NCBI RefSeq assembly: GCF_016859285.1
Contig: NC_053414.1
Location: 27,906,005-27,970,004 of the forward strand
Direction: 5' to 3'
Origin: Xiphias gladius
Lineage: Eukaryota > Chordata > Actinopteri > Istiophoriformes > Xiphiidae
Length of the DNA: 64,000 nucleotides
Shown: one piece after another, positions 5,331 to 61,875 of the stretch
Position numbering within the stretch: position 1 is the stretch's first letter
How the letters are laid out: each line of letters begins with the position of its first letter
Made by a program: the position numbers and the translations under genes
The notes under the pieces: generated by a model
The model's database searches: none
Told to the model about the DNA's origin: nothing
What the model saw: the letters and a program-made list of their open reading frames with translations, nothing else

Positions 5331-5660
5331 CCTCTCTCCGGACGACTCTGCTCTCCTGCGGACCGACAGGCGGAGGAGTCCAGTTGCTATTGGTAACGCT
5401 ATCTAACCTCAGGCTAGCTGTCTGTTATTCATAATGAGGTGCCCTGGCGCCCGCAGACGGATGAGTACGAAGACCTCGGCGCTCCTGGTGTCTCCTGTGG
5501 GACAGTAAACGAATGAAGGTGCCGCCGTGGGGGCTTCGCCACTCTGCTAATGGAGACTGACTCCGTTGTCAGTTTAGTCTCCGCTTGTTCGGGCAAATTA
5601 CACTCGAGACGTCACGACGTGCAACAAACAATCAGGGCTCATCAGGATAAACTCAGCCAT
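5331..5660 (-). promoter_or_regulatory. CpG-rich putative promoter
   Basis: The block is clearly richer in CpG than its AT-rich flanks. It contains a CCAAT box on the minus strand (ATTGG at 5389-5393) and a near-consensus cAMP-response element (GACGTCAC at 5608-5615). These fit a promoter driving a left-going transcript; a right-going transcript is not excluded. The inference rests on base composition and motifs only. Confidence 0.45.
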
Positions 5661-12900: not shown

Positions 12901-15900
12901 CAGAGCTTTATGCAGCCACCTCTACAGCAGGAGCAGCCTCACCCTCAGGGGCTGCAGGCACAGTCTCTGCCTCAGCGAGGGGAGCGGGAGGGACTTCATC
13001 TACTGCAGCCATACCAGTGCTCTCTGCCGCGGGGGCTTCTGCTGGAGTCTCCACCGTGGCGGCGACTTCCGCAGCGACAGGAGCAGCCTCGGGGACTGCC
13101 TCTACTGCTGCAGGTGGAGCAGCTTCTTCTGCCACTGCTGGCTCCGCTGGTGCCTCGGTAACGATCGCCTCAGAGGCTTCTTCAGCCGCGGCCTCGACGC
13201 CAGGATCGGCAACGGTCTCCGGTACCGCTTCTGCGGGAGCGGGGACAGACTCTGCGACGACCTCGGTGGCCGGCACTGCCTCCTCCTCCACCGGGGCGGG
13301 TTCAGCTGCAGGAGCTGCTGCCTCTGGTGCTGCCTCAGCTGAAGAAGCTGCAGATGAACATTTCGTGATAAGAAATCCATGAATGCAGCCACTTTTGACA
13401 GACCTATCCGTTACCTGTTATGTGCATAATGAAAAATTACAGCTAGTATAATGTACCTTAGATTTCAAGGCCTGTTTTGGCTCACTTCTATGGATAACTG
13501 AAAAAAGGTCTGGTCGTATTTGCTGCTACAGATACAGATGTGAGGGTAAATATTCTCTCTAAGGAGTTGATGTAATGAGACAAAACATGTCCGTAATGAG
13601 CTCTAGGTGACTCAGAGGTCAAACTGTTCTTCCAATCTCCTCAAATAAAATGTGGGAATATCAGGGCACTGGAAATCCTAAATCAAACTATGGCCTCCAG
13701 CTGCCTTCCACGACCCAGCTGGGCGATAAAAACTTTAGACTTTTAAAAAGAAAAAAGGGTCAGATTTTAACCATTTGACCTCAAATTCCTTTCAATAGGT
13801 AACATACGGTTGAAGGTCAAGAGATTAGGTCTTAAAAAGGTAAAGCAGCTGCTGTTGAAACTGCCAACATAACATGTGTAAAGAGAAGGATAATCCTTAA
13901 TCCTAACTTGTCAGAGGGACAGAAATATAACTGCTGAGCACACTGAAGCTGTTGGTTACTGGATGTTTGGTCTTAATAGCTAAAAGGAAATTCAATTTCT
14001 GTTTATACAGACAGAGATACTCCTTAAAAGACTTAATTAAATGACTGCAGTTACTACAGGGTGTACAAAAATGAGCGCTCGGGGGCTGAGGTTTGAAGCA
14101 TCAAATCTGAGCTAAAAGCGGAGCGACAGTACAGCTCTTCAGGTTCTCATCTTTGCTGAAAACGCGCCATTACTCAATATCCTCTGATAGCTCCTGATAA
14201 GTCATTATCTGCCAGCTAGTTTGACCAACTGAGTAAGAGCAAAATTTATAGTAAAAACAGTGAAACAAGAACCTGATAAGCAAAACAGTTTGTCTATGTG
14301 TCTTAGTGTCCATCCAATTCTTCTTGCTGTCCTGCTGGACACATGGCTCTGTGGCGCAACGGATAGCGCATTGGACTTCTAGTCAAGCACGGGAGGAGTG
14401 ATTCAAAGGTTGTGGGTTCGAGTCCCACCAGAGTCGTGCTTTTGAAATGACGACGCTGCCGTAAGAAAAACTAACACACCTATTAATAAACTAAAGCGAC
14501 GTGTGGTAGGATGAGAAGGATTTATCCAGGTTCCAATGTGGGAAGATTAATCTCATCCTTAAGATAAATGTAATAGTGTTAAGGTCTGTGTTAAAGCAAT
14601 AAGCAAATAAAAGTCAGGATGGAAAAGGAAAAGCATTTGCACAGCACTAAATGTTACTTGCTTAAGTAGCAATGGATATGATATTGATATTACCAGAGAC
14701 CGTAGTTCTTCAAATATATTTGTTGCAACACAGATGTGAGACGTAATACCCGTCTAAATTAAGATACTACAGGACAGTACGTGTCTAAAGATGTGACCAA
14801 GGTTTTGCGCTGACAGTAACAAGTATGACTGCAGCCTTGTGTCCACCAGTGAGCTTCAACTTTTGATGCTGTCTTTACTAAGCTTAAGCTTAACATCCAT
14901 TTAGACATTATGATGTCTTTACTCTTGTATGCAAATGGTGGATTACTTGTCAGTGCCCACATCAGAACATTAAAGTGGCTGTTTTGAAACAGGCAGCCAA
15001 ACAAATCCACCGGCCCCCTAAATGTGCAACTCAAGAACACTAAATTGTACTGTAATGACAGTCAGTGATGAGCACTCAGATTAATGTGTCAGGAAATATC
15101 ATCCTTGATCACAATCACTTTAATCGCCATCACTGTGTGCATCAAGGTGTTTCTGTGACTTTGTTTCCTAGAAACTTTTTTCTATACTATTACATAATAA
15201 GATAACTGGCCGACCAAAACAGTGCAACATCCAGCGCTGTAGGGAGCAGAGCTTTAAAATCTATTTGTGACCAAAAACAGCACTTGGAGGCAACATGTAC
15301 ACAAGTGATCCAGTGACAGTGGCTGCTTATCCCCATTACAGGCTAGTTAACTGCTCTGGGCGCAGAGCCATGATCTCTCCTGGCTCAAACTGGCTGAATA
15401 AGCAAATAATTTGCAGACAGAAATCAAAACAGACAGGCCAGATCAAGCCATTGAGTGTGATCATTCTACCATGTTTGACATTTGGGTGGTGAAGCCAGAA
15501 CCACCTCAGAAAAAAAACCCAAAAAAAAAAAAAAAAAAAAAAATCTTCTGCTCTCTCTTTTTCTATTTTGTCTCTCTCAGATGAAACTTTACTTCATTTG
15601 ACTTCTCTGAACCATTTCGGTTGAACCATTTGATTCTTCAATACTCAGTATATATACACCCACTACGTATATTAAAACAAAAATGTGACTGTGGATCATG
15701 TGTCACATTGAACTAATCTAGAAGCCAAAGACAGTTGCCCAATTAAAATCTGGCTGAGTTTTGAGGTTGCTGGATTCAGAAATATTAGAGATAAAGGATG
15801 GGGAAAAGTGAGTGCCATTTTTTCTGTATTAGTACTATCAATCTTTCATGAAATGTCTCAACAAAAGAGAAATATTCTTGTGTAGAGGTGATCAAACTGA

Positions 15901-24824: not shown

Positions 24825-27524
24825 TCAGCAGCAGGTCCACAGCTCTTTCTCTGGTCTTCTCTTGCTCAGGATTTTAAAGGACCCACTGTATGCCAGAGCG
24901 TTGGCTGCTGAAGGTCTCTTCTGCCGCTTCAGTTTGGCACCAACAGCGGCGACGATGTCTTCCACCTTATTCTGCTGGTATGAGACCTCCCTGTCACCAC
25001 GCTGCCCGGTCACACGTTTGATCAGCGGGTTCTTGGCAGACGTCTCAAAAAACATCATGCCGTGGGCCTTGGCGAAGCTCATCGCCCGCTCCTGGCTCAC
25101 CTGCTCCTCAGTCCTGCTGTGCTCGCGGAGGTCACTCTTATTACCCACCAGGAATCTGCGAGGAGGACGGGCGCCAGTAAGGGACAATTAACGAAGGAAG
25201 AGGACCGTAGTGTTTCAAAAAATAAGTGGCGAAGAAAGGTTTTTATGAGATTGAATCAAAAGCTGTCTCCTGTCTTTAGTGAGTGGCAGGACACGCAGAA
25301 AGCTGAGGCAATTACCTGGGGATTTCCTGTCCAAGGGAGTTCTGCCTGCACTCTTCAATCCAGGCAATCAGGCCGCTGAAGCTGGCAGGGCAGGTGACAT
25401 CATAAATGAAGAGCACGGCGTGGACGTTTCGGTAGTAGTGCTGCACCATGGACTTTCGAAAGCGCTCCTGTCCTGCCGTGTCCCACAGTTGGAGCTGACA
25501 GCGGGGAGGGAAAAGGAGAGAGCAAAAGTGAGACATTAACACGCAGGCTCTTCCCACTGACTGGCGCTGAGGAGCAGGCGGCCAGAGACAAAGACAGGAG
25601 AGAGAGGAAATGAATGAGAAGGCACAGAGAAAAAGAGAAATCGTGTTGAAATACCCCAAACCAGGACACACACACACACGCAGATACACAACAACATGCA
25701 CAGAAACATACTATGAGTCATCACTGAGAGGGAACAAAGTAAAAGGAATAAAGTTGATCTGATCGTTAGAAGGTCAGAGCCTTCTTCATAGTTTCCATGG
25801 ATGAGACAAATCAGTAACTAAATGTCAGTTCAAAACCATAAGAAACCAGATCACTCTCCCTCTCGCATAACGGGCACATTTGGAACATAAGAATAAGATT
25901 TCTTAAAGATTTGACTTGAGACTTGATATCAGAAACTTTCAAGTCTCAAGTCTCGGCCTGGTCGACACGGCAGAAAAAGGGCCTTGCACGGCCCGGGCAG
26001 CTCGCATATTTGATCCTCAGGTCCATGCTTTGAGACCGCTTGATCTCAGCTTTGTGTAAAAACGCTGTCAACATAATGTAACTTTGAAAAGGAACAATTT
26101 TAAATGCAGCGTCATTTTAAATCGTCAGCCTTTGAAGACCTGGAGGTCTTGAGACTTGTCTCCATTTGACTTGGAACTTGACCTGACACTTTTCTTGAAT
26201 GAATCAAGACTTGTCTTGAGACCTGCCCTCAGAAAACTTAAGACCCGTCTGGACTGACTTCAGACCTTCCTTACAAAAAAGCTCTGGCAACGTCATGAGG
26301 CACTCCCAATATTAAAAAATAAATAAATAAGAATACACAGACACATTTTTGAACGCTTTTTCAATGCCATTTATATTGCAGAATTTCTTCCATGATACAT
26401 TCACACTCAACCAAAGACACACAGGCCTGGTCTATTCCCTTAATAATTTAATGTTCTGGAAACAAAAGCATGAAACCTGCTCTGCCCTGAAGTTAAAAAC
26501 AAATCTTCAGTCACCACTGACAGACACTTCCTCTGTCATGTGGCCGTTTCAAAACACCCAGGAAACAGCACACACCAACTAACACCCACAGATTTAAGTC
26601 CTTTATCGTGTTTACACGATGCAGCTCGAGTGAAACTTTGCATACATGAGAGCCGGGTGAAATCCTATTGTAAAATCCTAATCCTAAATTCACTGCAGGA
26701 CCAGAATCAGGGCTGAATCAAATGCATTCAAGAGGCTGCTGATGTTGCGTGGGTACTAACGCGCCACCAACATCCGGCAGGTCACCCTCAGATTGATTTG
26801 CAGGGTGTGTTGGTTGATTTTTCAGCCATGCTGAGAATTCTCGGTCACCCAGCCTGAGACAAGTAGGCCTGTGTTCAGCAGAGCCCCGCTGCAGCGTAGA
26901 ATAGTAAGAGCTGACAGAGGAGATAAAAACGCAGCATAACACATGATAGAGTCATTGTTTAAAAGAAGCAGCTCACTCTTTAAGGGCCTGCGGGAATCTA
27001 ATGGGGATGTTATGGGCCCTTTCACACATGGAGCCCGTTTTTTTTGTGTGCTCAGGCTGATTCCTTACTTAAAGTGAACCCACAGACGAGCAGTGAAATT
27101 GTTGTAAAAGGTTCCAACAGAAAACATCGAAGTGTCTGGTTTTTATCGGTTGGTCCCCGAAGTTTTCAAAATAAAAGAGCCGCTTGGTCGTACGTAAATA
27201 AATTAAATTAAAATAATTTAACAAAAAAAAGGGTGAAAAAAAGATGTTTGGTACCATTCCTTTGCTTTAACTGATGCGCAAATTTCACCAGTTACCTTAA
27301 GTTACCTTAAGTTTTTCTCCGTCAATGTCCAGCAGTCTCTCACGGAAGTCCACCCCGATGGTGGCCTCCACTCTGCTGGGGAACTGTCCGGCGCAGAGAC
27401 GGTGCGTGAGGCAGGTCTTCCCCACCCCGGAGTCTCCGATCACCAGCACCTTGAAGGTCCGGCAGCGGGTCAGCAGTGAGGACACACTGCCCAGGGAGCT
27501 GGAAAACTCGAGGGAGGACTCCAT
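24825..27524 (-). CDS. rab33b: Ras-related GTPase Rab33B-like
   Basis: Exons at 27306-27524, 25316-25494 and 24825-25155 give 242 residues; all junctions are GT-AG. It shows the full Rab G-box set: GDSGVGKT (30-37), switch I with [15 protein letters not shown] (77-83), GNKSD (137-141) and ETSAK (170-174). [17 protein letters not shown] is the Rab33 signature. The protein ends in Cys-Cys for geranylgeranylation. The start MESSLE matches an internal MESSLE of human RAB33B, favouring B over A. Rab33B acts at the medial Golgi and binds ATG16L1 in autophagy. Unusual points are G in place of the family's N in the P-loop (GDSGVGKT), and an insertion of about ten residues after ETSAKNP. A second donor ten bases past the first exon's donor would add an immediate stop, so the first is used. 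Confidence 0.93.
25890..26260. repeat. Teleost 'acttgagacttg' dispersed repeat
   Basis: Inside rab33b intron 1, many degenerate iterations of words such as TTGACTTGAGACTTG, CTTGAGACTTGTC and GACTTGGAACTTGACC. This is an internally repetitive sequence common in fish introns. Its edges are diffuse. Confidence 0.65.
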
Positions 27525-27721
27525 CGCACGAGCGGCTCGCAGGGGAATTCGGTCGTAAGGCGAAAGCGCACGAACGCCCCGGGCATCCAACGCCGACTCC
27601 GCCACGGGGGACTTTTGGAAACCCAGGCTTCCTGTCGCAGGCGCGAGGCAACGTGTCCGACCCCAGGCTCCTCGCAAACTCGCCACGGCGCCGAGCAGCG
27701 TGAATGGGAAGAGGAGAGGGC

Positions 27722-27760
<39 letters not shown>

Positions 27761-28250
27761 GGTTTCATCTGGCAGCACGGCGATGGTCGGAGCCTGAGGG
27801 GCGGACAGTCGACCAATGACGAGCAGGCGTCAGCACGCGGCCTTAGTTCCTGGACAGAGAAAACGCGACGGGTTCGTCTGAAAAACGCTATTTCGGACGC
27901 ACGTGGTTGTGCGTTCTAGGTTCACCTGAGCAGCACGCAGAGCTGTGTACAGCGAACACACACGCGGCCCACCTTGCCTTGCTAATTTGAAACGTTCTGC
28001 CTCTTAGTGGCTGTCGTCGGACACAGAGACGCTTTTCTCATCATGGGTCCAGCTACTTTGCAACGGCGGTAACAGGTCCCCTATTCGGCTCCACGCCTCG
28101 CCCTCCTTCATCTGCTCACCTGCGCTGCCAGAGGAACGGCGCGGCGCGGCGCGGCGCTGCCCCCTGCTGGCAGACTTACTCTAGTCATTTTTGTTCTGTC
28201 CGCAGCGCCTGTGGATCCTGCTCTCCCACGGCGTCTCCCAAGACTGCCTC
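27525..28250 (-). promoter_or_regulatory. CpG-rich rab33b promoter and 5' UTR
   Basis: Strong CpG enrichment upstream of the rab33b ATG, including a GCGCGGCGCGGCGCGGCGC stretch near 28138-28157 and a (TC)n tract. This is typical of a housekeeping vertebrate promoter without a clear TATA box. The transcription start is not determined. Confidence 0.6.
27723..27756. repeat. (TC)n microsatellite in the rab33b 5' region
   Basis: A TC run of about 34 bases. On the minus strand it reads (GA)n, a possible GAGA-type element in the 5' UTR or promoter. Confidence 0.95.
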
Positions 28251-30679: not shown

Positions 30680-45879
<15,200 letters not shown>

Positions 45880-46110
45880 TGTTGCGGTTGAGATCAGTTT
45901 CCTCCTCGACCTCAGCACATGTAGCTAAAGTTAGCCCGGATAGTCTAGACGAGTAGAGCTGAGTGGTGGCCCTGGCTCGCCTGCTTCAGCCACTCCGCTC
46001 GATTGCTCCGTTTTCTCTCCGCACTCACTTCCTCCTCACGTAGGGACGGAAGCTCTAAAACCTTTCAAAATGGCGGCGGCAGATTTCCCCATGACAGAGC
46101 TGGGAAGATT
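45880..46110 (-). promoter_or_regulatory. naa15 promoter with YY1- and ETS-type sites
   Basis: Upstream of the naa15 ATG lie a perfect YY1-type element (CAAAATGGCGGC at 46066-46077) and two ETS/GABP-like cores (ACTTCCTC at 46027-46034 and ACGGAAGC at 46046-46053), in a TATA-less context. This combination is typical of broadly expressed vertebrate genes. The plus-strand ATG inside the YY1 motif opens only a 14-codon frame, so I do not call a gene there. Confidence 0.65.
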
Positions 46111-47592
46111 GTGACAAAGTTAGAGTTCATCCTCCATACATGTTTTAAGACATATTAAAATACTCCACTTGGAATAATCATTTGTGTCTGACTCTGTTAA
46201 TAAGTTAAAAATTCTTAAATTGCATCTACTCCTTCTCCATCCTTGAAAAATCTTGAATAAATAGCCTATGCAAATATTTTTCATTTCAGTTTAACCATCA
46301 GACACTGTGTCTCCTACTTCACTAGGAAATACGCACCATATCGGGCTTGTGTAAATTACATACAGGACCAAACTGGTTTCCAAACTAGCTGTGATGTCAC
46401 AACATAGTGCTCAAAAAAACTATGAATGAATCATTTTTTGTTTGTTTAAGTGTCATACACCTAAAGGTGCCCAGTCCACATGGCCTTAAAATAAACTACT
46501 TACATTAGGCTCCCTTCAGAGGGAAGAGAAGACAGAAAGGAAATGAAGCAGATACACTGCATACATGTGTGAAAAACATACCAGATATAAACTTAACAGA
46601 TTAATCATACAAGGGTTTCATACGTTGATGGCAGGCATTTAACAAAAACTGAGCTATGTCAAATGTCTCATATGTGAAAGATGTAGTGTAGTCTGCGTTC
46701 ATCGGCCATATCAAACAGATTAGGATGCCCAGCAGACATTTTCAGAAAAAGCTTAAAGCAGATATTTAAATAATAATAACACAACAAGGCAACCTATGTC
46801 TGAATGTATACTGTAAACTAAATTTAGAGATCAACTCTGCGAGTTCACTTGCATGGATAACTGTTTGAGCAATCCCAATAAAAGATTTGTTTAGTAAGTC
46901 TGTTGTCGGGAATGTTAATTAATCAATTACAAAGTTGCAGCATGTCAACGCTTTGCCTAACTTCACATGACTCCCATCTTAAATCACCACTTACAGACAG
47001 TTTTGGGACCATTTTATGCAAACCCAAAAAGCAATGCATAGGTCTGTCATTCACTACACCAGCAATGTACAATATTTACTCTGAAGATCCTGATCCTGAC
47101 CCCAACACCCACTGCTTAATTCCAAACAACCTGTTTTAGCCATTAATTTGCACAAATGCAACATGAGACTCGACAGAGAGCTTTCGCAGTTTTATAAAAT
47201 TTCCCACCAATGCGAGGATTTCAGTGGACTGAAGCTAAATCTAGCACAAATGATTGTGCGAGCACACATTGAGAAATGGCTCAAAAAAACCTTAAACTGA
47301 GATTTGAAGAGAGCACAGAGAAGTTTCCCCCCTTCAGCAGATGACTGTGAATGTGTCCTTTAGTGTCAGACTCTTCACATACATCTTTCTGCACAGGGAA
47401 GGTTGAACATTCAAGTGAAGAAACAATAAACACAACAGGTTTTGGAGTGGAGGGGGACTTTTAAAACAGTCAGAGCCCATTAACAAATTTTATATGTACA
47501 AACCATGTGTCTAGATTGTTCCTATGAAAATCAACTTTTAGTTACTGAAACTGCCTTGAATATTTATAATAACAATAAACGTTGAGGCGACC

Positions 47593-47637
<45 letters not shown>

Positions 47638-48204
47638 CGCATATGGGGCTACATACATATATAAATATGTGGGCTACATATATATGTAACCCAACCAATA
47701 GCTTACTGGGTCTGAAACTGATATTGATACTTGAGAATTATAAAAAATGAATAAATAAAAAAAAATGAATAAATAAATCTGATAAAACCATTTGTTTTAA
47801 AAAAAACATAAACATCAAATATAAACCAGCATTTTATGATCTGAAAAATTTGATTATTAAAGAATTGTGACCAAGCTATGCACTAAGGAGGCCATTTCAT
47901 AGTTTAATGGATTTTCATAGAAAAACATAGACACTTTCCCCAAATGATCACAGACTTATTTATAACATTTCTTCCTTCATATACCTGATGTCAGCAATTA
48001 GGTTCAACCATGGGCCAGTTCTTACAGACTCGTTCAGTGAGGGGGCGCAATGAATAAATTTAAGAATAACTGATTATTTGTTTCAGGATTGAATCTGAGG
48101 ACAGATCTTATTTTTCCTGTTTGTAACTAAGGACTGACAGAGTTACAAAAGCTTACTATTTTAATATATGTGAATGTATCTTCTATGTTCCACCATGAGA
48201 CCTG
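46111..48204. other. Non-coding region between naa15 and the tandem array
   Basis: AT-rich, with no supported exon on either strand. ndufc1, which shares a promoter region with NAA15 in human, is not recognisable here. A (TA)n run lies at 47595-47632. Confidence 0.5.
47595..47632. repeat. (TA)n microsatellite
   Basis: An almost pure TA run of about 38 bases followed by further TA- and CATA-rich sequence to about 47690. Confidence 0.95.
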
Positions 48205-49021
48205 AAATGTAAATGAATGGTTTTCCACACAACATAAAAATGTGGCCTGCTTTATGGCTGAATGACAGACGTCGTTGTTGTTGTTGTTTGAGGCCCACAA
48301 CCTGCTATTTGCTGACCGCTGATATAGTCGACTGACATCTATTAAAGGAAAGCTCTCTAAAAACAGAAAGACTTTCTTTATCATAGATCCTAAGGCGCAG
48401 ATATGTACAGTACTATGAACAGTCACTGAAGTGAGGGCGCCTTTATCAGTTTGAGTCTTAACACCTTATGGAGCTGTTGTGTTCACTGATTTGTTGTATG
48501 TCTTTAACAATGTGGGCCCTGGGTGTGTAAGTGTGAATACAGGACACTGATTGAGGGGCTCAGACCAGGACGCATTGTGTCCTGTCTACTGTGTCCTTAT
48601 ACTTTTAGGAGAAAAAGTCTGTTCACTCGCTGAGACCAATACAAAGAAGCTGGTGTGGACTTGTCAAATGCCATCAAGAGCTTTGTTAGAACCCTGATGA
48701 ACTAGAACACATGATGAGAATGTTCTCTGTTCCATTCCTTCCCTCTATCACATCATCGCTGTAGAACTCTGACACAATGATGTGCATTCTGGCTGGAACC
48801 CGTCTCTGCAGAAGAACTTCATTTACCTTCAGAAACCTGAACTGAGCACTGTCTCTGTCTTTGGTAAACACAGGCGTCAACTGTTGAAAAACAAGAACAA
48901 TCGATAGCTCTACCTACGATTGTAACATCGGTCACTTCAGCAACAACTGGATCAGAAAGATCTACAGCTGCTAAGTGCGACTGCTCTCTTGGTTGCCCTT
49001 CAGTAACCTCACTGAGCTGAG

Positions 49022-50463
49022 ATGGCCAAACAAAGAAACCAGGTAAGATTTTCTCAATTTGACCTGGAGAAACGTTTTTTTTTCATCGCTGTCCCTCTCT
49101 AGGCCTGCCTACTTTTCCCTTTCATTTATTCATATTTGGTCTAAAGCCTCAGTACATTTTAATACAGTTTGTTGAGTTAATGCATCACAATGTTAGCAAT
49201 TTCTCATATCCTTAAGCCACCTTGAGAACTACAGTACTTCTAATATATTTTGATAAAAATATAAAAAGAAAAGGAGAATTTTATAATTACAATAGGGTTT
49301 CCTGGGCAAAAATCTTCCATCTTTCTTCTCTCAAAATGTGAAAACAGATTACTCTTGCTGTCAGCGTCTCTAATCAATGGATTCAAAATTGGAAAAAAGT
49401 GAAATTTACACTGTAACATAACTAACCAAGCATGTGTGTGAGACCTGAATAAAAAGCTTGACCCAAACATCCTTAGGTTTCACCAAAATAATCCACAGGA
49501 AAGCGGGTTTAAGCCCAACCGACTCAACTGAAACTGAAAGTAGTTGAGTTGAGTTGGGACTAGAGTTTTAGCCATGAACTTAATGTCTATTTCTCTTTTC
49601 TTCAGGCATTTGGGCCAATGCAGTTTAGCGCTGCTCTTTATGACCCACAGCAGTACAGCCTGGCTGCAGTGCAGCTGCAGCACACTGTGCAGGGCCTCAG
49701 GGACGCCCTCTACTCAGCAGTCACTGAGATAAAGTCTCTCAAAGGGGAAAACACTGCTCTAAAGGAGCAAGTTAACCTCCTGGAAAAAGGAAAGACGCAG
49801 ATGGAGAGCCAGCTCCTAGAGGAGCTCAGACGAAAAGATGAGCTCCTCAAAAGAGCCACCAGGAAAAGGCAGGCTCGCCTGAAAGCCCACATAGACTGCC
49901 TGGACCTGCTCGCTCGAAAAGAAAAAGAGCTAAAGAGGAGCGGAGAGCAGTGGAAGAGCAGGTGTGAGGCCCTGGAGGCAAGCCTGCAAAAGGAGCTGGC
50001 TCGGAAAGAGGAAAGCCGGACAAGGAAAGTGCAGGAGGTGGAAAATGAGAGGAACCTGCACTGCAACCAGGTACGATGCCTCAGCAAATCCTTTACCTCA
50101 GAATAATGGCCAGCTTGTTTCAGAATGCCTGAGAATTTGTTTCTGGATGTGGAATAAATTTGACTTTTTTCATCTTTTCAGAATCTTGTCCGCAAAACAA
50201 AAGAACTGGAGGAGAGCAAGATTCAAATCAAGGAGGAGAACAAGACCGAAAAAGAATCGGAGGAGAACCAGAATCAAAACAATAAGAACGAGAACAAGAT
50301 TCAAAACAAGAAGAACACGATTCAAAAAGAAGAAAAGATGGAAAAAGAAGACAATGAGAATGTGGAGGAGGAGAGACAGAGGAATGAAAATAAAGAAATG
50401 AATGAGAAAAAAGAGAAGAAGCCAAAGAAGAAGAGGGGGAAGAAAAAGAAGAACAGGGGATAG
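49022..50463 (+). CDS. Coiled-coil protein of unknown family, copy 1
   Basis: Three exons: 49022-49042 (MAKQRNQ, with a strong Kozak context, G at -3 and +4), 49606-50070 and 50182-50463, all GT-AG and phase 0, giving 255 residues. Residues 8-30 are mixed (AFGPMQFSAALYDPQQYSLAA). About residues 35-175 form a predicted long coiled coil with heptad Leu and charged residues (for example IKSLKGENTALKEQVNLLEK). The last exon is Lys/Glu/Asn-rich and ends in a basic cluster (KKPKKKRGKKKKNRG) that could be a nuclear or nucleolar signal. I recognise no catalytic motif and no signal peptide. Copy 2 has the same reading frame up to the last codons. That two copies keep open frames and intact splice sites suggests a functional or very recently duplicated gene. 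Function unknown. Confidence 0.75.
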
Positions 50464-50480
50464 CTACAGCAGAACATCCC

Positions 50481-50612
50481 TCCCCCTGAAACCCCCCTTC
50501 CTACCTTACCCACTCCCCACTCCCCCTTCCCCATTCCTACCCTTTACCCCTTTCTCCCTCACCCCTTACCCTTTACCCTCTCCCACCCCCATCCCTTCCC
50601 CTACCCATCCCT
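50481..50612 (+). repeat. C-rich pyrimidine tract behind copy 1
   Basis: Over about 130 bases the plus strand is almost only C and T with sparse A (words such as CCCTTTACCCCTTTCTCCC and CCCACCCCCATCCCTTCCCC). In copy 1 it follows the stop codon and is 3' UTR. The homologous tract in copy 2 is read through and translated. The opposite strand is G-rich with several GGG runs. Confidence 0.85.
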
Positions 50613-51129
50613 CTTTTATATGTATGACATATAGTAAACATATAAACTGTACAATACAGTTGTGTTGAAGTGAATTACTTCTGCCTGTGTTTGCCTTTCG
50701 AAATATAGACACAGGATTCATGGCTCTCATCAAGCATTGCAGTAATGTTTAGGAGGAACAGATCAGATGTGACAATGTATGGCATCTTTCTATCTTTAAA
50801 TATGTCACTTGTTTTAGACTTCACGTGGACAACAGGAGTTGGAAGGTTTGGAAAAAGAGTCACAGTTTGGGAATTTTTCTTTCACGTTTGTTTGTGACAC
50901 ATCTTGGCCATCAAATTAGTCTTAGTGCCCCAAAAGAGCACTGGTTCGGCACGGTTTACTCTGACAACAGAGAGGGTGAAAAATCAAAGATCATTTGGAT
51001 GATGTGGTTAAAACAGCCCGTTCTCTTATGCTAACACCTTGAATCCACTTTGTTCACTGTTCTAGGAAAAACTTCCAACTCTGGATATCATATCTCCTGA
51101 AAACAATATACCATAAAATAATACACCCC

Positions 51130-51215
51130 CACTTTTGGTTTAGGCAACAGTGTGCTTCCAACTTTGTGGCAATGGAGACAGTATTTCCTGTTTCAACATG
51201 GCCCCATGCGCAGGA
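51130..51215 (+). repeat. Decayed Tc1-like transposase fragment
   Basis: The segment GGTTTAGGCAACAGTGTGCTTCC...CCTGTTTCAACATGGCC encodes VLPTLWQ...FLFQH, which resembles a conserved stretch of teleost Tc1/mariner transposases that leads into an FQHDNAPVH motif. Only this short piece is recognisable. Similar pieces recur near 51840-51910, 55531-55605, 56842-56915, 59290-59360 and 60530-60605. The assignment is from memory of the family. Confidence 0.4.
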
Positions 51216-51301
51216 AACGGGGTCTTTTTTCTAGTTTTGGACAGGACTAAAAAATGTATCAATAAGAATAAAAGCAGTTTGCCATAATATCCTCACAGAA
51301 C

Positions 51302-52587
51302 GGGTTGTTTTTTTTACGTTGCTGCTTTAAACACAATGTATGTTAACTTTTGGCCGATCCTCCATCAGATTGTCAAACTTCTCCAATACCAAAACATACC
51401 GGAGAAGCGCTTACAGAGACGATATTGTCAGTGCAAAAGTCTAATTCTCCACCAAAATACCAACAACCAACAAAACCCACCTGTTTGGCGCCTTTCTTTT
51501 CTCCACCTGTGACTTCCCTGGACAACAGGAGTTAACATTTCACCGCAATCTGGAGGTTGGAAAACAGTCACAGTTTGGGAATTTTTTCACGCCTTGGTTT
51601 GTGACACACATCTTAACATCAATTAGTATTAGTGCCCCAAAAGAGCACTGGTTCGCACGGTTTACTCTGACAACAGAGAGGGTGAAAAATCAGCGATCAA
51701 TCGATGATGTGATTAAACAGCCCGTTCTCTTAAGGTAACACCTTGATTCAACTTTGTTCACTGTTTGAGAAAAAACATCCAACTCTGGACATCCAATCTC
51801 CCAAAAGCAATATACCATAAAATAATACACCCCCACTTTTGGTTTAGGCAACAGTGTGCTTCCAACTTTGTGGCAACGGAGACAGTATTTCCTGTTTCAA
51901 CATGGCCCGATGCAGACCGATTTGCTGACGTAGCTGCTTTAAACACAATTTATGTTAACTTTGTGATTGAGAGAAAAATTTGCATTCAAGCATTATACCA
52001 TTATTATCAATATTTATCACTCTGCTCTTATCGATAAAATCACACCAGAGACCGAGGCGCTTCTGAGACGTCTATTGTCAGTGCAAAGTCTAAATCTCCA
52101 GCAAAATACCAACAACCAACAAAACCCACCTGTGCATCGTGCACCCTGCATTTGGCACCATAATACCACACAAACTCCAAAAACAATGGATCCTGCGGCG
52201 TTACCTACACTACACTGAATGCAACTCAATGGCATCTTTAGGACAGGTAAACACCGCGTTTTCACGCTCCAGTCCCACGGTTGACAACGCAGGCTCTGCG
52301 GCTAAATTCCCAGACCAAACCTGAGCTCACGCTGAGGACATCATCAGGGTGATGTTCTCAGACTTCTCAAAGCTCCTCCAGAGACACCGGGATCCTCATA
52401 GAGGCAGCCTGTGTAGGGCTCCACCTGACCAGTAGAGTTATTTTGATGTGCACGACAGGTGGAGTGCCCCTTTAGATACTTTGAAGAATTCCTCCTAATG
52501 ATGAACCACTTACACAGGGGCAGGAAAGACAATTTGCCCATGGGTCAAACTTCTTTTTTTCCTCTTTATCGTGTTTGATCATGTTTG
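51302..52587 (+). repeat. Mosaic repeat spacer of unit 1
   Basis: Composed of rearranged pieces found again in later spacers: GATCCTCCATCAGATTGTCAA, AAACACAATGTATGTTAAC, a second copy of the 50850-51200 segment starting near 51530, and the stretch 52023-52585 that recurs at about 57080-57660 and 60725-61280. No intact gene is seen. A weak reverse-transcriptase-like string (RVMFSDFSK) can be read in the equivalent stretch near 57420-57445. Confidence 0.75.
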
Positions 52588-55500
52588 AGATGTACATGAA
52601 TGGTTTTCCACACAACATAAAAATGTGGCCTGCTTTATGGCTGAATGACAGATTGTCGTTGTTGTTTGAGGCCCACAACCTGCTATTTGCTGACCGCTGA
52701 TATAGTCGACTGACATCTATTAAAGGAAAGCTCTCTAAAAACAGAAAGACTTTCTTTATCATAGATCCTAAGGCGCAGATATGTACAGTACTATGAACAG
52801 TCACTGAAGTGAGGGCGCCTTTATCAGTTTGAGTCTTAACACCTTATGGAGCTGTTGTGTTCACTGATTTGTTGTATGTCTTTAACAATGTGGGCCCTGG
52901 GTGTGTAAGTGTGAATACAGGACACTGATTGAGGGGCTCAGACCAGGACGCATTGTGTCCTGTCTACTGTGTCCTTATACTTTTAGGAGAAAAAGTCTGT
53001 TCACTCGCTGAGACCAATACAAAGAAGCTGGTGTGGACTTGTCAAATGCCATCAAGAGCTTTGTTAGAACCCTGATGAACTAGAACACATGATGAGAATG
53101 TTCTCTGTTCCATTCCTTCCCTCTATCACATCATCGCTGTAGAACTCTGACACAATGATGTGCATTCTGGCTGGAACCCGTCTCTGCAGAAGAACTTCAT
53201 TTACCTTCAGAAACCTGAACTGAGCACTGTCTCTGTCTTTGGTAAACACGAAGCGTCAACTGTTGAAAAACAAGAACAATCGATAGCTCTACCTACGATT
53301 GTAACATCGGTCACTTCAGCAACAACTGGATCAGAAAGATCTACAGCTGCTAAGTGCGACTGCTCTCTTGGTTGCCCTTCAGTAACCTCACTGAGCTGAG
53401 ATGGCCAAACAAAGAAACCAGGTAAGATTTTCTCAATTTGACCTGGAGAAACGTTTTTTTTTCATCGCTGTCCCTCTCTAGGCCTGCCTACTTTTCCCTT
53501 TCATTTATTCATATTTGGTCTAAAGCCTCAGTACATTTTAATACAGTTTGTTGAGTTAATGCATCACAATGTTAGCAATTTCTCATATCCTTAAGCCACC
53601 TTGAGAACTACAGTACTTCTAATATATTTTGATAAAAATATAAAAAGAAAAGGAGAATTTTATAATTACAATAGGGTTTCCTGGGCAAAATCTTCCATCT
53701 TTCTTCTCTCAAAATGTGAAAACAGATTACTCTTGCTGTCAGCTGCCTCTAATCAATGGATTCAAAATTGGAAAAAAGTGAAATTTACACTGTAACATAA
53801 CTAACCAAGCATGTGTGTGAGACCTGAATAAAAAGCTTGACCCAAACATCCTTAGGTTTCACCAAAATAATCCACAGGAAAGCGGGTTTAAGTTCAACCG
53901 ACTCAACTGAAACTGAAAGTAGTTGAGTTGAGTTGGGACTAGAGTTTTAGCCATGAACTTAATGTCTATTTCTCTTTTCTTCAGGCATTTGGGCCAATGC
54001 AGTTTAGCGCTGCTCTTTATGACCCACAGCAGTACAGCCTGGCTGCAGTGCAGCTGCAGCACACTGTGCAGGGCCTCAGGGACGCCCTCTACTCAGCAGT
54101 CACTGAGATAAAGTCTCTCAAAGGGGAAAACACTGCTCTAAAGGAGCAAGTTAACCTCCTGGAAAAAGGAAAGACGCAGATGGAGAGCCAGCTCCTAGAG
54201 GAGCTCAGACGAAAAGATGAGCTCCTCAAAAGAGCCACCAGGAAAAGGCAGGCTCGCCTGAAAGCCCACATAGACTGCCTGGACCTGCTCGCTCGAAAAG
54301 AAAAAGAGCTAAAGAGGAGCGGAGAGCAGTGGAAGAGCAGGTGTGAGGCCCTGGAGGCAAGCCTGCAAAAGGAGCTGGCTCGGAAAGAGGAAAGCCGGAC
54401 AAGGAAAGTGCAGGAGGTGGAAAATGAGAGGAACCTGCACTGCAACCAGGTACGATGCCTCAGCAAATCCTTTACCTCAGAATAATGGCCAGCTTGTTTC
54501 AGAATGCCTGAGAATTTGTTTCTGGATGTGGAATAAATTTGACTTTTTTCATCTTTTCAGAATCTTGTCCGCAAAACAAAAGAACTGGAGGAGAGCAAGA
54601 TTCAAATCAAGGAGGAGAACAAGACCGAAAAAGAATCGGAGGAGAACCAGAATCAAAACAATAAGAACGAGAACAAGATTCAAAACAAGAAGAACACGAT
54701 TCAAAAAGAAGAAAAGATGGAAAAAGAAGACAATGAGAATGTGGAGGAGGAGAGACAGAGGAATGAAAATAAAGAAATGAATGAGAAAAAAGAGAAGAAG
54801 CCAAAGAAGAAGAGGGGGAAGAAAAAGAAGAACAGGGATAGCTACAGCAGAACATCCCTCCCCCTGAAACCCCCCTTCCTACCTTACCCACTCCCCACTC
54901 CCCTTCCCCATTCCTACCCTTTACCCCTTTCTCCCTCACCCCTTACCCTTTACCCTCTCCCACCCCCATCCCTTCCCCTACCCATCCCTCTTTTATATGT
55001 ATGACATATAGTAAACATATAAACTGTACAATACAGTTGTGTTGAAGTGAATTACTTCTGCCTGTGTTTGCCTTTCGAAATATAGACACAGGATTCATGG
55101 CTCTCATCAAGCATTGCAGTAATGTTTAGGAGGAACAGATCAGATGTGACAATGTATGGCATCTTTCTATCTTTAAATATGTCACTTGTTTTAGACTTCA
55201 CGTGGACAACAGGAGTTAACATTTCACCGTGAATCTCGGAGGTTTGGAAAAAGAGTCACAGTTTGGGAATTTTTCTTTCACGTTTGTTTGTGACACATCT
55301 TGGCCATCAAATTAGTCTTAGTGCCCCAAAAGAGCACTGGTTCGGCACGGTTTACTCTGACAACAGAGAGGGTGAAAAATCAAAGATCATTTGGATGATG
55401 TGGTTAAAACAGCCCGTTCTCTTATGCTAACACCTTGAATCCACTTTGTTCACTGTTCTAGGAAAAACTTCCAACTCTGGATATCATATCTCCTGAAAAC

Positions 55501-55695
55501 AATATACCATAAAATAATACACCCCCACTTTTGGTTTAGGCAACAGTGTGCTTCCAACTTTGTGGCAATGGAGACAGTATTTCCTGTTTCAACATGGCCC
55601 CATGCGCAGGAAACGGGGTTGTTTTTTTAGTTTTGGACAGGACTAAAAAATGTGTCCATAAGAATAAAAGCAGTTTGCCATAATATCCTCACAGA
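52588..55695 (+). repeat. Tandem array unit 2 (gene-bearing)
   Basis: Second copy of the block at 48205-51301, highly similar throughout including introns and flanks. Its right neighbour (55696-57660) is a longer, less rearranged version of the spacer than the one after unit 1. Confidence 0.93.
53401..55004 (+). CDS. Coiled-coil protein of unknown family, copy 2 (extended C-terminus)
   Basis: Exons 53401-53421, 53985-54449 and 54561-55004, GT-AG and phase 0, giving 309 residues. It is identical to copy 1 through the coiled coil and Lys/Glu-rich segment. One G fewer in the G-run at about 54834-54837 (AACAGGGAT against AACAGGGGAT in copy 1) bypasses the TAG used in copy 1. Reading continues through the C-rich tract as a Pro/Leu/Tyr-rich tail (SLPLKPPFLPYPLPTPL and on) to a TGA at 55002-55004. 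Which copy has the ancestral end is unclear; the tail composition is just what a pyrimidine tract encodes, so the shorter end is more likely original. Function unknown. Confidence 0.72.
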
Positions 55696-57665
55696 ATGAT
55701 CTGCACCTGCAAAACTCCTACCCAAAGCACCTGCCTTTTAAGCACTAATCAGGCCGATCCTCCATCAGATTGTCAACTTCTCACACGAAATATCCCTGAA
55801 TGCACAGGAAGCATTGCCATAACATCAGCGGAGCAAAATTACACTGCCCAGACGACTTATCCTCGCAATTCAGTTGGCAACTTGTCCTTTAATGTCCTTC
55901 CACTCAACGGCTGACAATTGCATTTGTACAAGATCGCTCAAAATATAGGGAGTTGATTACTGTGAATTTGTTTAAGCACTTGAGGTTGGAGCCTGCTTTT
56001 TGCGTGGCAAGGGAAGGAGCATACTCTTGTCAAAGAACATGAGGGCCTGTTGCTTGTTAGAGCATACTAAAAGTATTCTCCAAACTCTCAATCATTATTT
56101 TTTTTAAGCCTTAACTAATTTGTTAGATAGGAGTCACACACAAACGGAGCCAGAGCCGATGGTATTTAGTCATATAAATGCTCACCGCTTTTAGTAAAAA
56201 TTTGACACAACAGCATTTGCTAAATCACGACACTGGCTCAAAGAAGAAATTGGAGAGGAGGCAATGATTACACAGGACTGATGAGCCAGCTAATCCCACA
56301 TCTCCCACTAACAACAGTAAGGCTATACCCTGGTAGGCTATACAGAATGGAACGGTCTGATGTGTTTAGAGTTCGCTGTAGCTGCTCAGCCATTGGGCTG
56401 TCATTTTGCAACTTAATTTAAACATCAAGCCATAACACAGCCAGCGCCCTTCTCAAATCAGAGGGCTGAGGATTTATAGTTACACATGTGTCCTGCTTCC
56501 TAAAAATAAGATGGCTACAGCTGCTGTGACAATAGATACTGTAAAAAATCACTCTTCTCTCATTTATATAGACAATGCAACCGAGTTGCTTGACGCTAAG
56601 CTGCTTTAAACACAATGTAAGTGCTAACTTTTAATTTCATGCAGATTTAAACGCCTCCACGGGCTGGAGAGTGATTGAGAGAAGAAAACTTGCATTCAAG
56701 CATTATACCATCAATCATAAATACTGTATCAATTTGTATTACTTGCTCTTATCGATAAAATCACACCAAAAAAAACTTCCAACTTCTGGACATTATATCT
56801 CCCAAAAGCAGTATACATAAAATAATACACCCCACTTTTTGCTTTAGAGGCAACAGTGTGCTTCCAACTTTGTGGCAACGGAGACAGTATTTCCTGTTTC
56901 AACATGGCCCGATGCAGAACGGGTCGATTTGCTAGCGTCTAGATTTTGCTTTAAGCCTAAAAAATTTATGTAAGTAAAAGCAGTTTGCCATAATGAGGAG
57001 AATGAAAGAAACTTCCTACCCAAGCATTATAAGCACTATTCATAAATATAAATGCTGAATGCATTTGCTCTTATATATCGAGCAAAATCACACCAGAATA
57101 CCGAGGCGCTTCTGAGACGCCTATTGTCAGTGCAAAGTCTAAATCTCCAGCAAAATACCAACAACCAACAAAAACCTCCACCTGTGCATCGTAAGCACCC
57201 TGCATTTAAGCACCATAATACCACACAAACCTCCAAAAACAATGGATCCTGGCGGCTGCCAGACTCCACACTACACTGAATGCAACTCAATGGCATCTTT
57301 TGCGACAGGTAAACACCCAGCCTTTTCTCACTTGCAGCCCAGTCCCACGTTGACAACGCAGGCTCTTGCGGCGTTAAATTCCCAGACCAAACCTGAGCTT
57401 CACGCTGAGGACATCATCAGGGTGATGTTCTCAGACTTCTCAAAGCTCACTCCAGAGACAATCCCCATCCCCTCATAGAGGCAGCCTGTAGGGGAGCTCC
57501 ACCTGACCAGTAGAGTTATTTTGATGTGCACTTACAGGTGGAGTGCCCTTTAGATACTTTTGAAGAATTCTCCTAATGATGAACCACTTACACAGGGGTA
57601 GTGAAGAAAGACAATTTGCCCATGGGTCAAACTTCTTTTTTTTTCCTCTTTTTTATCGTGTTTGA
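55696..57665 (+). repeat. Mosaic repeat spacer of unit 2
   Basis: Pieces shared with 59451-60246 (for example ATGATCTGCACCTGCAAAACTCC, and CACAGGAAGCATTGCCATAACATCAG) and with 51302-52587. The part after about 56,000 carries many extra 1-4 base insertions relative to its paralogues. No gene is supported. Confidence 0.75.
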
Positions 57666-58500
57666 TCATGTTTGAGATGTACATGAATGGTTTTCCACAC
57701 AACATAAAAAATGTGGCCTGCTTTATGGCTGAATGACAGATTGTCGTTGTTGTTTGAGGCCTTTCACAACCTGCTATTTGCTGACCGCTGATAGTGTCGA
57801 CTGACATCTATTAAAGCTGAAAGCTCTCTAAAAACAGAAAGATTCTCTTTATCATAGATCCTATAAAAGCGCAGATATGTACAGTACTATGAACAGTCAC
57901 TGGAAGTGAGGGCGCTTTTATCAGTTTGAGTCTTAACACCTTTTATGGAGCTTTTGTGTTCACTGATTTGTTGTATGTCTTTAACAATGTGGGCCCTGGG
58001 TGTGTAAGTGTGAATAATAGGACACTGATTGAGGGCTCCAGACCAAGGACGCATTGTGTCCTGTGTCTACTGTGTCCTTATACTTTAGGAGAAAAAAGTC
58101 TGTTCACTCGCTGAGACCAATACAAAGAAGCTGGTGTGGACTTGTCAAATGCCATCAAGAGCTTTTGTTAGAACCCTGATGAACTAGAACACATGATGAG
58201 AATGTTCTTCTGTTCCATTCCTTCTTATCACATCATCGCTGTAGAACTCTGACACAATGATGTACATTCTGGCTCAAACCCGCTCTGCAGAAGAACTTCA
58301 TTTACCTTCAAGAAACCTGAACTGAGCACTGTCTCTGTCTTTGAGAGTAAACACGGTTGCGTCAACTGTTGAAAAACAAGAACAATCGATAGCTCTACCT
58401 ATGATTGTAACATGGAATCACTTCAGCAACAACTGGATCAGAGAAAGATCTACAGCTGCTAAGTCACGACTGCTCTCTTAGTTTGCCCTTCAAGTAACCT
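57666..58500 (+). repeat. Tandem array unit 3, left part, cut by a gap
   Basis: Homologous to about 52580-53390, the region just upstream of the coiled-coil gene. The sequence stops at the gap at the words AAGTAACCT, about a dozen bases before the ATG in the other copies. It contains numerous small insertions absent from units 1, 2 and 4. Confidence 0.9.
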
Positions 58501-59000
58501 NNNNNNNNNNNNNNNNNNNNNNNNNNNNNNNNNNNNNNNNNNNNNNNNNNNNNNNNNNNNNNNNNNNNNNNNNNNNNNNNNNNNNNNNNNNNNNNNNNNN
58601 NNNNNNNNNNNNNNNNNNNNNNNNNNNNNNNNNNNNNNNNNNNNNNNNNNNNNNNNNNNNNNNNNNNNNNNNNNNNNNNNNNNNNNNNNNNNNNNNNNNN
58701 NNNNNNNNNNNNNNNNNNNNNNNNNNNNNNNNNNNNNNNNNNNNNNNNNNNNNNNNNNNNNNNNNNNNNNNNNNNNNNNNNNNNNNNNNNNNNNNNNNNN
58801 NNNNNNNNNNNNNNNNNNNNNNNNNNNNNNNNNNNNNNNNNNNNNNNNNNNNNNNNNNNNNNNNNNNNNNNNNNNNNNNNNNNNNNNNNNNNNNNNNNNN
58901 NNNNNNNNNNNNNNNNNNNNNNNNNNNNNNNNNNNNNNNNNNNNNNNNNNNNNNNNNNNNNNNNNNNNNNNNNNNNNNNNNNNNNNNNNNNNNNNNNNNN
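58501..59000. other. Assembly gap (500 N)
   Basis: Exactly 500 unknown bases, a round number suggesting a placeholder length. In unit 2 the distance between the sequences that flank this gap (53390 and about 56537) is about 3.1 kb and includes the whole coiled-coil gene. Confidence 0.99.
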
Positions 59001-61280
59001 TACTGTAAAAATCGCTCATACTCATTCATAAGCAAATGCAGACCGATTTGCTGACGTTGCTGCTTTAAACACAATGTATGTTAACTTTTTCATGCAGATT
59101 TAAACGCCTCAACGGGCTGGAGAGTGATTGGGAGCAAAACTTGCATTCAAGCATTATACCATCAATCATAAATACTGCTGTATTTACTCTGCTCTTATCG
59201 ATAAAATCACACCAGAAAAACAAACTTCCAACTCTGGACATTATATCTCCCAAAAGCAGTATACCATAAAATAATACACCCCCACTTTTGGTTTAGGCAA
59301 CAGTGTGCTTCCAACTTTGTGGCAACGGAGACAGTATTTCCTGTTTCAACACGGCCCCATGCGCAGGAAACGGGGTTTTTTTCTAGCTTTGGAAAGGACT
59401 AAAAATTGTATCCATAAGAATAAAAGCAGTTTGCCATAATATCCTCACAGAATGATCTGCACCTGCAAAACTCCTACCCAAAGCACCAGCCTTTTAAGCA
59501 CTAATCAGGCCGATCCTCCATCAGATTGTCAACTTCTCCTACAAAATATCCCAGAATACACAGGAAGCATTGCCATAACATCAGCTGAGAAAATCACACT
59601 GCCCAGACGACTTATCCTCGTAATTCAGTTGGCAACTTGTCCTTTAATGTCCTTCCACTCAACGGCTGACAATTGCATTTGTACAAGATCACTCAAAATA
59701 TAGGGAGTTGATTACTGTGAATTTGTTTAAGCACTTGAGGTTGGAGCCCATGTTTTGCGTGGCAGAGGAAGGAGCATACTTTGTCAAAGAACATGAGGGG
59801 CCTGTTTGTTAGAGCATACTAAAGTATCTCCAAACTCAAATCATTATTTTTTTCGCCTTAACTAATTTGTTCGATAGGAGTCACCCACAAACGGACGCAC
59901 GCGATGGTATTTCGCGTCATAAATGCTCACACCGTGAAATTTGACACAACAGCATTTGCTAAAATGCGACACTGGCTAAAGAAGAAAGTTGGAGAGGAGG
60001 CAATGACACACAGGACTGATGAGCCGCTGTAATCCCACATCTCCCACTACGAACAACAGTAGGCTATACCGAGTCGGAACGGACCGGTCTGATGTGTTTG
60101 GGGAGTACGCTGTAGCTGCCTAGTGTCATTTGCACCCGATTTAATCAAAGTAAACACAGCGCCACTTCTCAAATCAGAGGCCGCACATTTATAGTTACAC
60201 ATGTGTCCTGCTGCCCTAAGATGGCTACAGCTGTGGACAATAGATACTGTAAAAATCGCTCATACTCATTCATAAGCAAATGCAGACCGATTTGCTGACG
60301 TTGCTGCTTTAAACACAATGTATGTTAACTTTTTCATGCAGATTTAAACGCCTCCACGGGCTGGAGAGTAATTGAGACCAAAACTTGCATTCAAGCATTA
60401 TACCATCAATCATAAATACTGCTGTATTTACTCTGCTCTTATCGATAAAATCACACCAGAAAAACAAACTTCCAACTCTGGACATTATATCTCCCAAAAG
60501 CAGTATACCATAAAATAATACACCCGCTTTTGGTTTAGGCAACAGTGTTTCCAACTTTGTGGCAACGGAGACAGTATTTCCTGTTTCAACATGGCCCGAT
60601 GCAGACCGACGGTTGACGTTGCTGCTTTTAAACACAATTTATGTTAACTTTGTGATTGAGAGAAAAATTTGCATTCAAGCATTATACCATTATTCATAAA
60701 TACTGCTGTATTTACTCTGCTCTTATCGATAAAATCACACCAGAGACCGAGGCGCTTCTGAGACGTCTCTATTGTCAGTGCAAAGTCTAAATCTCCAGCA
60801 AAATACCAACAACCAACAAAACCCACCTGTGCATCGTGCACCCTGCATTTGGCACCATAATACCACACAAACTCCAAAAACAATGGATCCTATGCTGCAT
60901 TCACACTACACTGAATGCAACTCAATGGCATCTTTTGTGACAGGTAAACACCCGCGTCTTTCACGCTCCAGTCCCACGGTTGACAACGCAGGCTCTTGCG
61001 GCTAAATTCCCAGACCAAACCTGAGCTCACGCTGAGGACATCATCAGGGTGATGTTCTCAGACTTCTCAAAGCTCCTCCAGAGACACCGGGATCCTCATA
61101 GAGGCAGCCTGTGTAGGGCTCCACCTGACCAGTAGAGTTATTTTGATGTGCACGACAGGTGGAGTGCCCCTTTAGATACTTTGAAGAATTCCTCCTAATG
61201 ATGAACCACTTACACAGGGGCAGGAAAGACAATTTGCCCATGGGTCAAACTTTTTTTCCTCTTCTTTATCGTGTTTGATC
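59001..61280 (+). repeat. Mosaic repeat spacer with an internal 1.24-kb duplication
   Basis: The first 370 bases (TACTGTAAAAATCGCTCATA onward) recur at 60245-60610, a nested direct repeat with a period of about 1,244 bases. The stretch 60725-61280 matches 52023-52585 closely. No gene is seen. Confidence 0.85.
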
Positions 61281-61697
61281 ATGTTTGAGATGTACATGAA
61301 TGGTTTTCACACAACATAAAAAATGTGGCCTGCTTTATGGCTGAATGACAGATTGTCGTTGTTGTTTGAGGCCCACAACCTGCTATTTGCTGACCGCTGA
61401 TATAGTCGACTGACATCTATTAAAGGAAAGCTCTCTAAAAACAGAAAGACTTTCTTTATCATAGATCCTAAGGCGCAGATATGTACAGTACTATGAACAG
61501 TCACTGAAGTGAGGGCGCCTTTATCAGTTTGAGTCTTAACACCTTATGGAGCTGTTGTGTTCACTGATTTGTTGTATGTCTTTAACAATGTGGGCCCTGG
61601 GTGTGTAAGTGTGAATACAGGACACTGATTGAGGGGCTCAGACCAGGACGCATTGTGTCCTGTCTACTGTGTCCTTATACTTTTAGGAGAAAAGGTC
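61281..61697 (+). repeat. Tandem array unit 4, truncated
   Basis: Very similar to 52588-52990 and to 48205-48610. It breaks off inside the 5' flank, after TACTTTTAGGAGAAAAGG, before any coding exon, so it carries no gene copy. Confidence 0.9.
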
Positions 61698-61875
61698 AGA
61701 GGCAGCCTGTGTAGGGCTCCACCTGACCAGTAGAGTTATTTTGATGTGCACGACAGGTGGAGTGCCCCTTTAGATGCTTTGAAGAATTCCTCCTAATGAT
61801 GAACCACTTACACAGGGGCAGGCAAGACAATTTGCTCATGGGTCAAACTTCTTTTTTTCCTCTTTATCATGTTTA
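61698..61875 (+). repeat. Repeat of the pre-unit segment, right end of the array
   Basis: A copy of 61100-61270 (AGAGGCAGCCTGTGTAGGGC onward), displaced by 598 bases. After about 61,875 the sequence is single-copy within the window, marking the right border of the array. Confidence 0.9.

Follow-up and report, generated by a model that had tools for sequence, protein, structure and literature searches.

Two kinds of described element come close to what we report here. Pack-TYPE elements are non-autonomous class II elements that hold captured gene DNA between terminal inverted repeats (TIRs), and they are described from plants in the available part of the source (PMC8903248). For the PIF/Harbinger elements of teleosts, the corresponding part of PMC9179366 gives a 3-bp target-site duplication and TIRs of 25-50 bp. 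Our subject is a gene for a coiled-coil protein in Xiphias gladius, which lies in a tandem array within a stretch of 64,000 nucleotides (NC_053414.1, positions 27,906,005 to 27,970,004 of the forward strand) that we call the window and whose own numbering is used throughout. We put at roughly 85% the probability that this gene is carried by a family of TIR-type class II DNA transposons, and that the window harbors a copy lacking both ends that was multiplied by local tandem duplication.

The family resembles Pack-TYPE elements in its TIR ends, its target-site duplication, the gene in its interior and the fact that no transposase has been recognised so far (8 of 51 open reading frames (ORFs) were sent to Pfam). 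It differs from them in that it resides in a vertebrate genome, that no parent gene was found, and that many copies carry the gene in full, start to stop and introns included. The target-site duplication of PIF/Harbinger elements is TWA, whereas the target site here is ANT. With these elements the family shares the length of 3 bp, the TIR ends and the presence of short gene-less relatives, but neither a DDE transposase (again from 8 of 51 ORFs) nor a Myb-like protein was recognised, and an assignment to PIF/Harbinger was not adopted for this reason. Furthermore, the inverted repeats are imperfect and stay under the 25-50 bp stated in the accessible part of PMC9179366. Arrays formed by tandem segmental duplication likewise display head-to-tail units, an internally deleted last unit and near-identical gene parts, but the unit here is largely the interior of a truncated mobile element.

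In the first array copy, the gene has three exons on the forward strand, namely exon 1 (49022-49042, encoding MAKQRNQ), exon 2 (49606-50070), which encodes the coiled coil, and exon 3 (50182-50463), which encodes a tail rich in Lys, Glu, Asn and Gln that ends in KKPKKKRGKKKKNRG and is followed by a TAG stop at 50461-50463. The junctions 49042-49606 and 50070-50182, proposed earlier from the bare letters (the sequence-only reading), are correct. Both introns are GT-AG, and the product is a protein of 255 amino acids with a basic tail. The same reading had both copies keep this open frame, which applies to copy 1 only. In copy 2 (exon 1, 53401-53421; exon 2, 53985-54449, identical to that of copy 1; exon 3, 54561-55004; all on the forward strand), a 1-bp difference (50456/54834) abolishes the usual stop, such that the frame stays open until a TGA at 55002-55004 and yields 309 amino acids; up to that difference the exons are otherwise identical. 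The longer G run that goes with the stop is found in copy 1, in two of the three unit ends of the unplaced contig C691 and in a near-identical copy, L010, and the shorter run in copy 2 and the last C691 unit. Because GGGGTTA stands at the gene end in 9 of the 17 dispersed loci aligned there, copy 1 keeps the usual end of the family.

A coding nature of the copy 1 gene is supported by codon log-odds, by the shuffle-tested open frame of exon 2 and by the recurrence of the gene model among dispersed copies. The log-odds, trained on 620 codons of the neighbouring genes NAA15 and RAB33B, were +50.2 for exon 2 in the gene frame (its other five frames ranging from -50 to +7) and +28.9 for exon 3 (its other five frames all being negative), while intron 1 and the 3′ flank scored negative in all six frames. 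An open frame like that of exon 2 arose in 4 of 3000 shuffles in the gene frame and in 13 of 3000 in any of the three forward frames. For exon 3 the open frame was reached in 178 of 3000 shuffles, which taken alone is weak evidence.

The gene is dispersed in the genome. A search of 690.8 Mb in 1298 contigs, in which all match counts are lower bounds, returned at least 59 tblastn rows for the exon 2 protein. These group into at least 44 places, separated by over 1 kb and distributed across 20 contigs, with whole or partial matches, five of which are near-identical copies in the window, C691 and L010. Exon 2 DNA gave at least 43 matches, 5 of them at 99-100% and 38 at 77-88% identity. The sequence-only reading had seen in this locus its best candidate for something undescribed, a framing that is wrong, as the gene belongs to a dispersed, transposon-borne family. 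We fetched 20 stretches, consisting of C691, L010 and 18 dispersed copies. L010 (G000:C15:27361500-27371400) matches 48483-50683 over 2.2 kb at 98% identity and lies about 590 kb off on the same contig. All 18 dispersed copies show homology beyond exon 2, introns and flanks included, albeit to a variable extent, and jointly they span about 46.0-51.9 kb of the window. Their coverage is 18/18 at exon 2, 16/18 at 49.0-49.1 kb, 11/18 at 48.2 kb, 12/18 at 50.6 kb, 4/18 at 47.0 kb and 1/18 at 46.0 kb. Exon 1 was alignable in 15 of 19 copies, and the ATG is present in 12 of those 15, the near-identical L010 among them; the splice sites and the basic C-terminus likewise recur over many copies.

There is variation within the family as well. 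In L015, L020 and L021, exons 2 and 3 are fused, and variants without intron 2 thus exist. Local tandem copies are found at L020, L021, the window and a cluster on C14, and intact frames exist. In L018 (around 5520-6500), the tail region is expanded by many tandem repeats encoding Lys, Glu, Asn and Gln, with 195 stop-free codons in one frame. An apparent open frame of 1759 amino acids on C121 was discarded, as it is a scaffold gap of 5000 N. Of the four remote matches that were fetched, three have element flanks, and the fourth (L060) consists of a single exon that contains a stop; no parent host gene was identified.

Membership of the gene in a TIR transposon is supported by ends shared between copies, by short elements without the gene and by a 3-bp target-site duplication. 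A left end is common to L015, L017 and L027, where it lies 4585, 3518 and about 7374 bases ahead of exon 2, and upstream of it the three loci do not match each other. A right end is common to L014, L015, L017, L021 and L027, and is partial in L020 and L022. From end to end, L015 measures 6.8 kb, L017 4.4 kb and L027 9.0 kb, the last including an insertion in intron 1 with an ORF that by eye is Tc1/mariner-like (no Pfam match at 0.01). The inverted repeats, read by eye as imperfect and about 16 bp long, are in most copies TAGGTACGTTTACATG on the left and TAGCTGYGGTTACATG (reverse complement) on the right. With the left end as query, 36 of 40 scored matches begin at query base 1-4. Three elements of 0.36-0.76 kb (L035, L036, L037) are bounded by both ends yet lack any match to the gene. 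Two further loci are less complete, L038 with the left end and a partial right end, L039 with the left end alone. The gene-less L036 element (611 bp) as query gave 51 rows from the 40 scored of 107 candidates, with 26 of the 51 beginning at base 3-5 and 15 finishing at base 608-611. In the window, no termini were found within 43000-64000, though inner right-hand parts are present; this copy is therefore truncated on both sides and, with neither end, cannot in its present form have multiplied by transposition.

The target site was examined in 15 insertions with both junctions, comprising the gene-bearing L015, L017 and L027, the short L035-L037 and nine further short elements; L038 and L039 (no full right end) and a tenth short pair on C10 (no right end) were left out. 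Scanning offsets and lengths of 2-8 against 300 shuffled pairings, we found an exact 3-bp duplication at one fixed offset in 6 of the 15 (L017, L027, L035, L040, L056 and L059, the first two of which are gene-bearing), a number that none of the 300 shuffles reached. Lengths of 2 and 4-8 were not significant in these 15 insertions. The pattern is C-ANT-element-ANT-G, i.e., ANT inside CANTG, and L036 and L053 also match it by eye with a one-base shift. An earlier scan with poorer anchors had given 3 of 11 insertions.

As to the protein sequence, the ratio of nonsynonymous to synonymous substitution rates (dN/dS) in exon 2 has a median of 0.46 (quartiles 0.38-0.57, pooled 0.55) and lies below 1 in 201 of 204 pairs of at least 80 codons with dS above 0.02, the pairs not being independent. 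Exon 2 is free of stops in 11 of 21 copies, window and L010 included, some of the 11 being partial or frameshifted.

Several observations weigh against our interpretation and have to be set beside this evidence. No transposase was recognised in the three copies that were read end to end (51 ORFs of at least 70 amino acids inspected, 8 of them sent to Pfam), which leaves superfamily and driver unproven. The inverted repeats are not only imperfect but also short, at the fixed offset 9 of the 15 insertions are without an exact 3-bp duplication, and only a minority of the 44 places were read as far as both ends. In ungapped comparison with the window, exon 2 is 84.3% identical, barely above intron 1 (83.2%) and the 3′ untranslated region (83.3%), with the 5′ flank at 81.0%, so that part of the low dN/dS may reflect fast synonymous sites; furthermore, 10 of the 21 exon-2 copies have 1-3 stops. 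Whether there is selection on the protein is thus uncertain.

In the mechanism that we propose, gene-bearing elements (about 4.4-9 kb) and short elements alike would be (or have been) mobilised in trans by a transposase whose gene lies elsewhere, and the cargo gene would ride along, spliced, in a Pack-TYPE-like manner. In the window, a unit of 4.4-6.9 kb of the element that lacks its ends was duplicated in tandem, with the gene part nearly uniform among the units. This local duplication took place later than the dispersal, since the heads of the window units differ by about 0.4% substitutions as compared to 16-19% from the dispersed copies. We lean modestly towards captured host cargo over an accessory gene of the element itself. 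The latter nevertheless has a substantial, if minority, share of the probability: the coiled-coil protein might act like the Myb-like second protein of Harbinger, and the copies that we see would have lost the transposase gene. The recurrence of the gene structure in dispersed copies, the median dN/dS of 0.46 and the basic tail would fit such a role, as would a 3-bp duplication like that of Harbinger in the available text of PMC9179366. Yet neither a transposase nor a remnant of one was recognised in L015, L017 and L027 (8 of 51 ORFs to Pfam), and the protein has no Myb or trihelix match in Pfam. A host gene family that spread by ordinary segmental duplication and never transposed would account for the local tandems at L020, L021, the window and the C14 cluster and for the intact frames, but it is hard to reconcile with common ends, short gene-less elements that have the same ends, and a 3-bp duplication, and we consider it very improbable.

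If a transposon family carrying a spliced gene is indeed at hand, this has consequences for how such loci are read. Automatic annotation would count the intact copies as species-specific genes and the array as a young adaptive cluster, and a transposon origin corrects both. It would also provide a case from an animal in which a TIR element has spread an entire gene, introns included, and in which relatives with and without the gene coexist in the same genome; selection for such cargo thereby becomes testable. It is possible, at somewhat less than even odds, that a vertebrate cut-and-paste transposon has kept a complete spliced coiled-coil gene translatable over dozens of insertions, and that the protein serves either the element, in a novel accessory role, or the host.

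The protein could not be named at the outset, and this still holds for the databases searched. Searches of Pfam gave nothing above the cut-off (only weak matches below it, none of them Myb), a PDB sequence search had no match, and neither did single scans of IMG/VR and GTDB, which are sensitive to close relatives only. Judging from titles and the openings of abstracts, we found no published description of the gene or the transposon family. AlphaFold2, run on exon 2 without an alignment, predicts a single helix over exon residues 14-154 with a mean predicted local distance difference test (pLDDT) score of 91.8. A hydrophobic periodicity of 3.5 residues is present at residues 25-95 (reached in 104 of 5000 shuffles) and 25-175 (144 of 5000) and less clear at 95-175 (333 of 5000); the tail shows no such periodicity (2253 of 5000). 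By its predicted long helix the protein may self-associate into oligomers, and its basic tail would be consistent with a nuclear location.

The array itself has four forward-strand units, whose starts (48203, 52586, 57673 and 61286) are in one phase. It is preceded by element interior that belongs to the first copy only (46018-48202, forward strand; blastn matches to L017, L020, L027, L012 and L024), in which no left terminus was found. Unit 1 (48203-52585, 4383 bp) contains the gene-bearing interior and an end stretch, of which the part 52000-52499 is matched by at most one of the 18 fetched dispersed copies in any 100-bp bin. Unit 2 (52586-57672) is 5087 bp long and shares a single gap-free stretch with unit 1. 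The near-identity of two gene blocks about 4.4 kb apart over more than 3 kb, noted in the sequence-only reading, is borne out: 48203-51300 and 52586-55696 are 98.7% identical over 3119 columns (12 mismatches, 29 gap columns), with starts 4383 bp and ATG codons 4379 bp apart. Gene conversion was considered for the uniform heads, as units 1 and 2 differ from each other mainly towards their edges, a clustering that 0 of 2000 shuffles reached, and it was set aside because recent duplication together with faster-changing tails fits too. The last unit (61286-61874) is, as previously described, gene-less: a 412-bp head (61286-61697) is fused to the last 177 bp of a unit (61698-61874), and it is thus an internally deleted unit that has lost the gene.

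Unit 3 (57673-61285) is indeed gapped, by 500 N at 58501-59000, and its sequence ends just short of the expected ATG position. Its divergence looks to be largely insertion-type error of an unpolished contig end ahead of the gap. Over 56770-58095 there are 28 private insertions, 6 deletions and 86 substitutions relative to the two other unit junctions, which have 1/6/15 and 1/4/16, respectively, and the excess of insertions (28 to 6, against 2 to 10 in the two others together) has a Fisher p of 9e-5. The insertion-rich change sets in near 56.07 kb, i.e., in the last 2.4 kb before the gap, such that the apparently unpolished part (56070-58500) covers some of the unit 2 tail and the unit 3 head. 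Over the clean positions 55465-56064, units 2 and 3 are separated by 32 substitutions in about 600 bases (~5%), a divergence that would be too high for haplotypes of most fish. The unplaced contig C691 (12.4 kb) covers three units in part, among them two copies of the gene at a 6.9-kb period. Compared with unit 1, its first head has 10 substitutions over 3.1 kb and its second 26 over 2.6 kb. Since it holds further gene units, the array is likely to comprise more units than are present in the window, or else C691 is its other haplotype.

It had been left undecided at first whether this is a young cluster or an artefact of haplotype copies. A false duplication, in which haplotypes or overlapping contig ends were placed serially, would explain why unit 3 is insertion-rich beside the gap; this is a known error at contig boundaries with differing consensus quality, going by the accessible part of PMC8081667, and C691 might represent a second haplotype of the array. 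Against this, no gap interrupts the stretch that holds units 1 and 2, the clean sequence of units 2 and 3 diverges by about 5% substitutions, the unit 2/3 junction agrees in mosaic fashion with the 1/2 and the 3/4 junction at the sites that tell these two apart, and C691 itself carries units in series. We therefore regard false duplication as improbable and haplotypes merely set side by side as unlikely, part of unit 3 being a consensus artefact. A young tandem array is supported by the single phase of the units, by the ~5% substitutions between units 2 and 3 and by the 6.9-kb period of C691.

Upstream of the array, exons of RAB33B and NAA15 lie on the minus strand (24828-27764, 34847-35185 and 36902-37369) in a conserved vertebrate neighbourhood, the gene order in the mouse being Mgarp-Ndufc1-Naa15-Rab33b-Setd7 in the available portion of PMC5063463. 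By eye, the interval from 31 to 41 kb holds further NAA15-like ORFs. At 9066-10013 there is an ORF rich in Glu and Ala, with no Pfam match, that could be MGARP. The sole Rfam match in the window is a tRNA-Arg(TCT) gene of 94 nucleotides at 14344-14437, perhaps with an intron.

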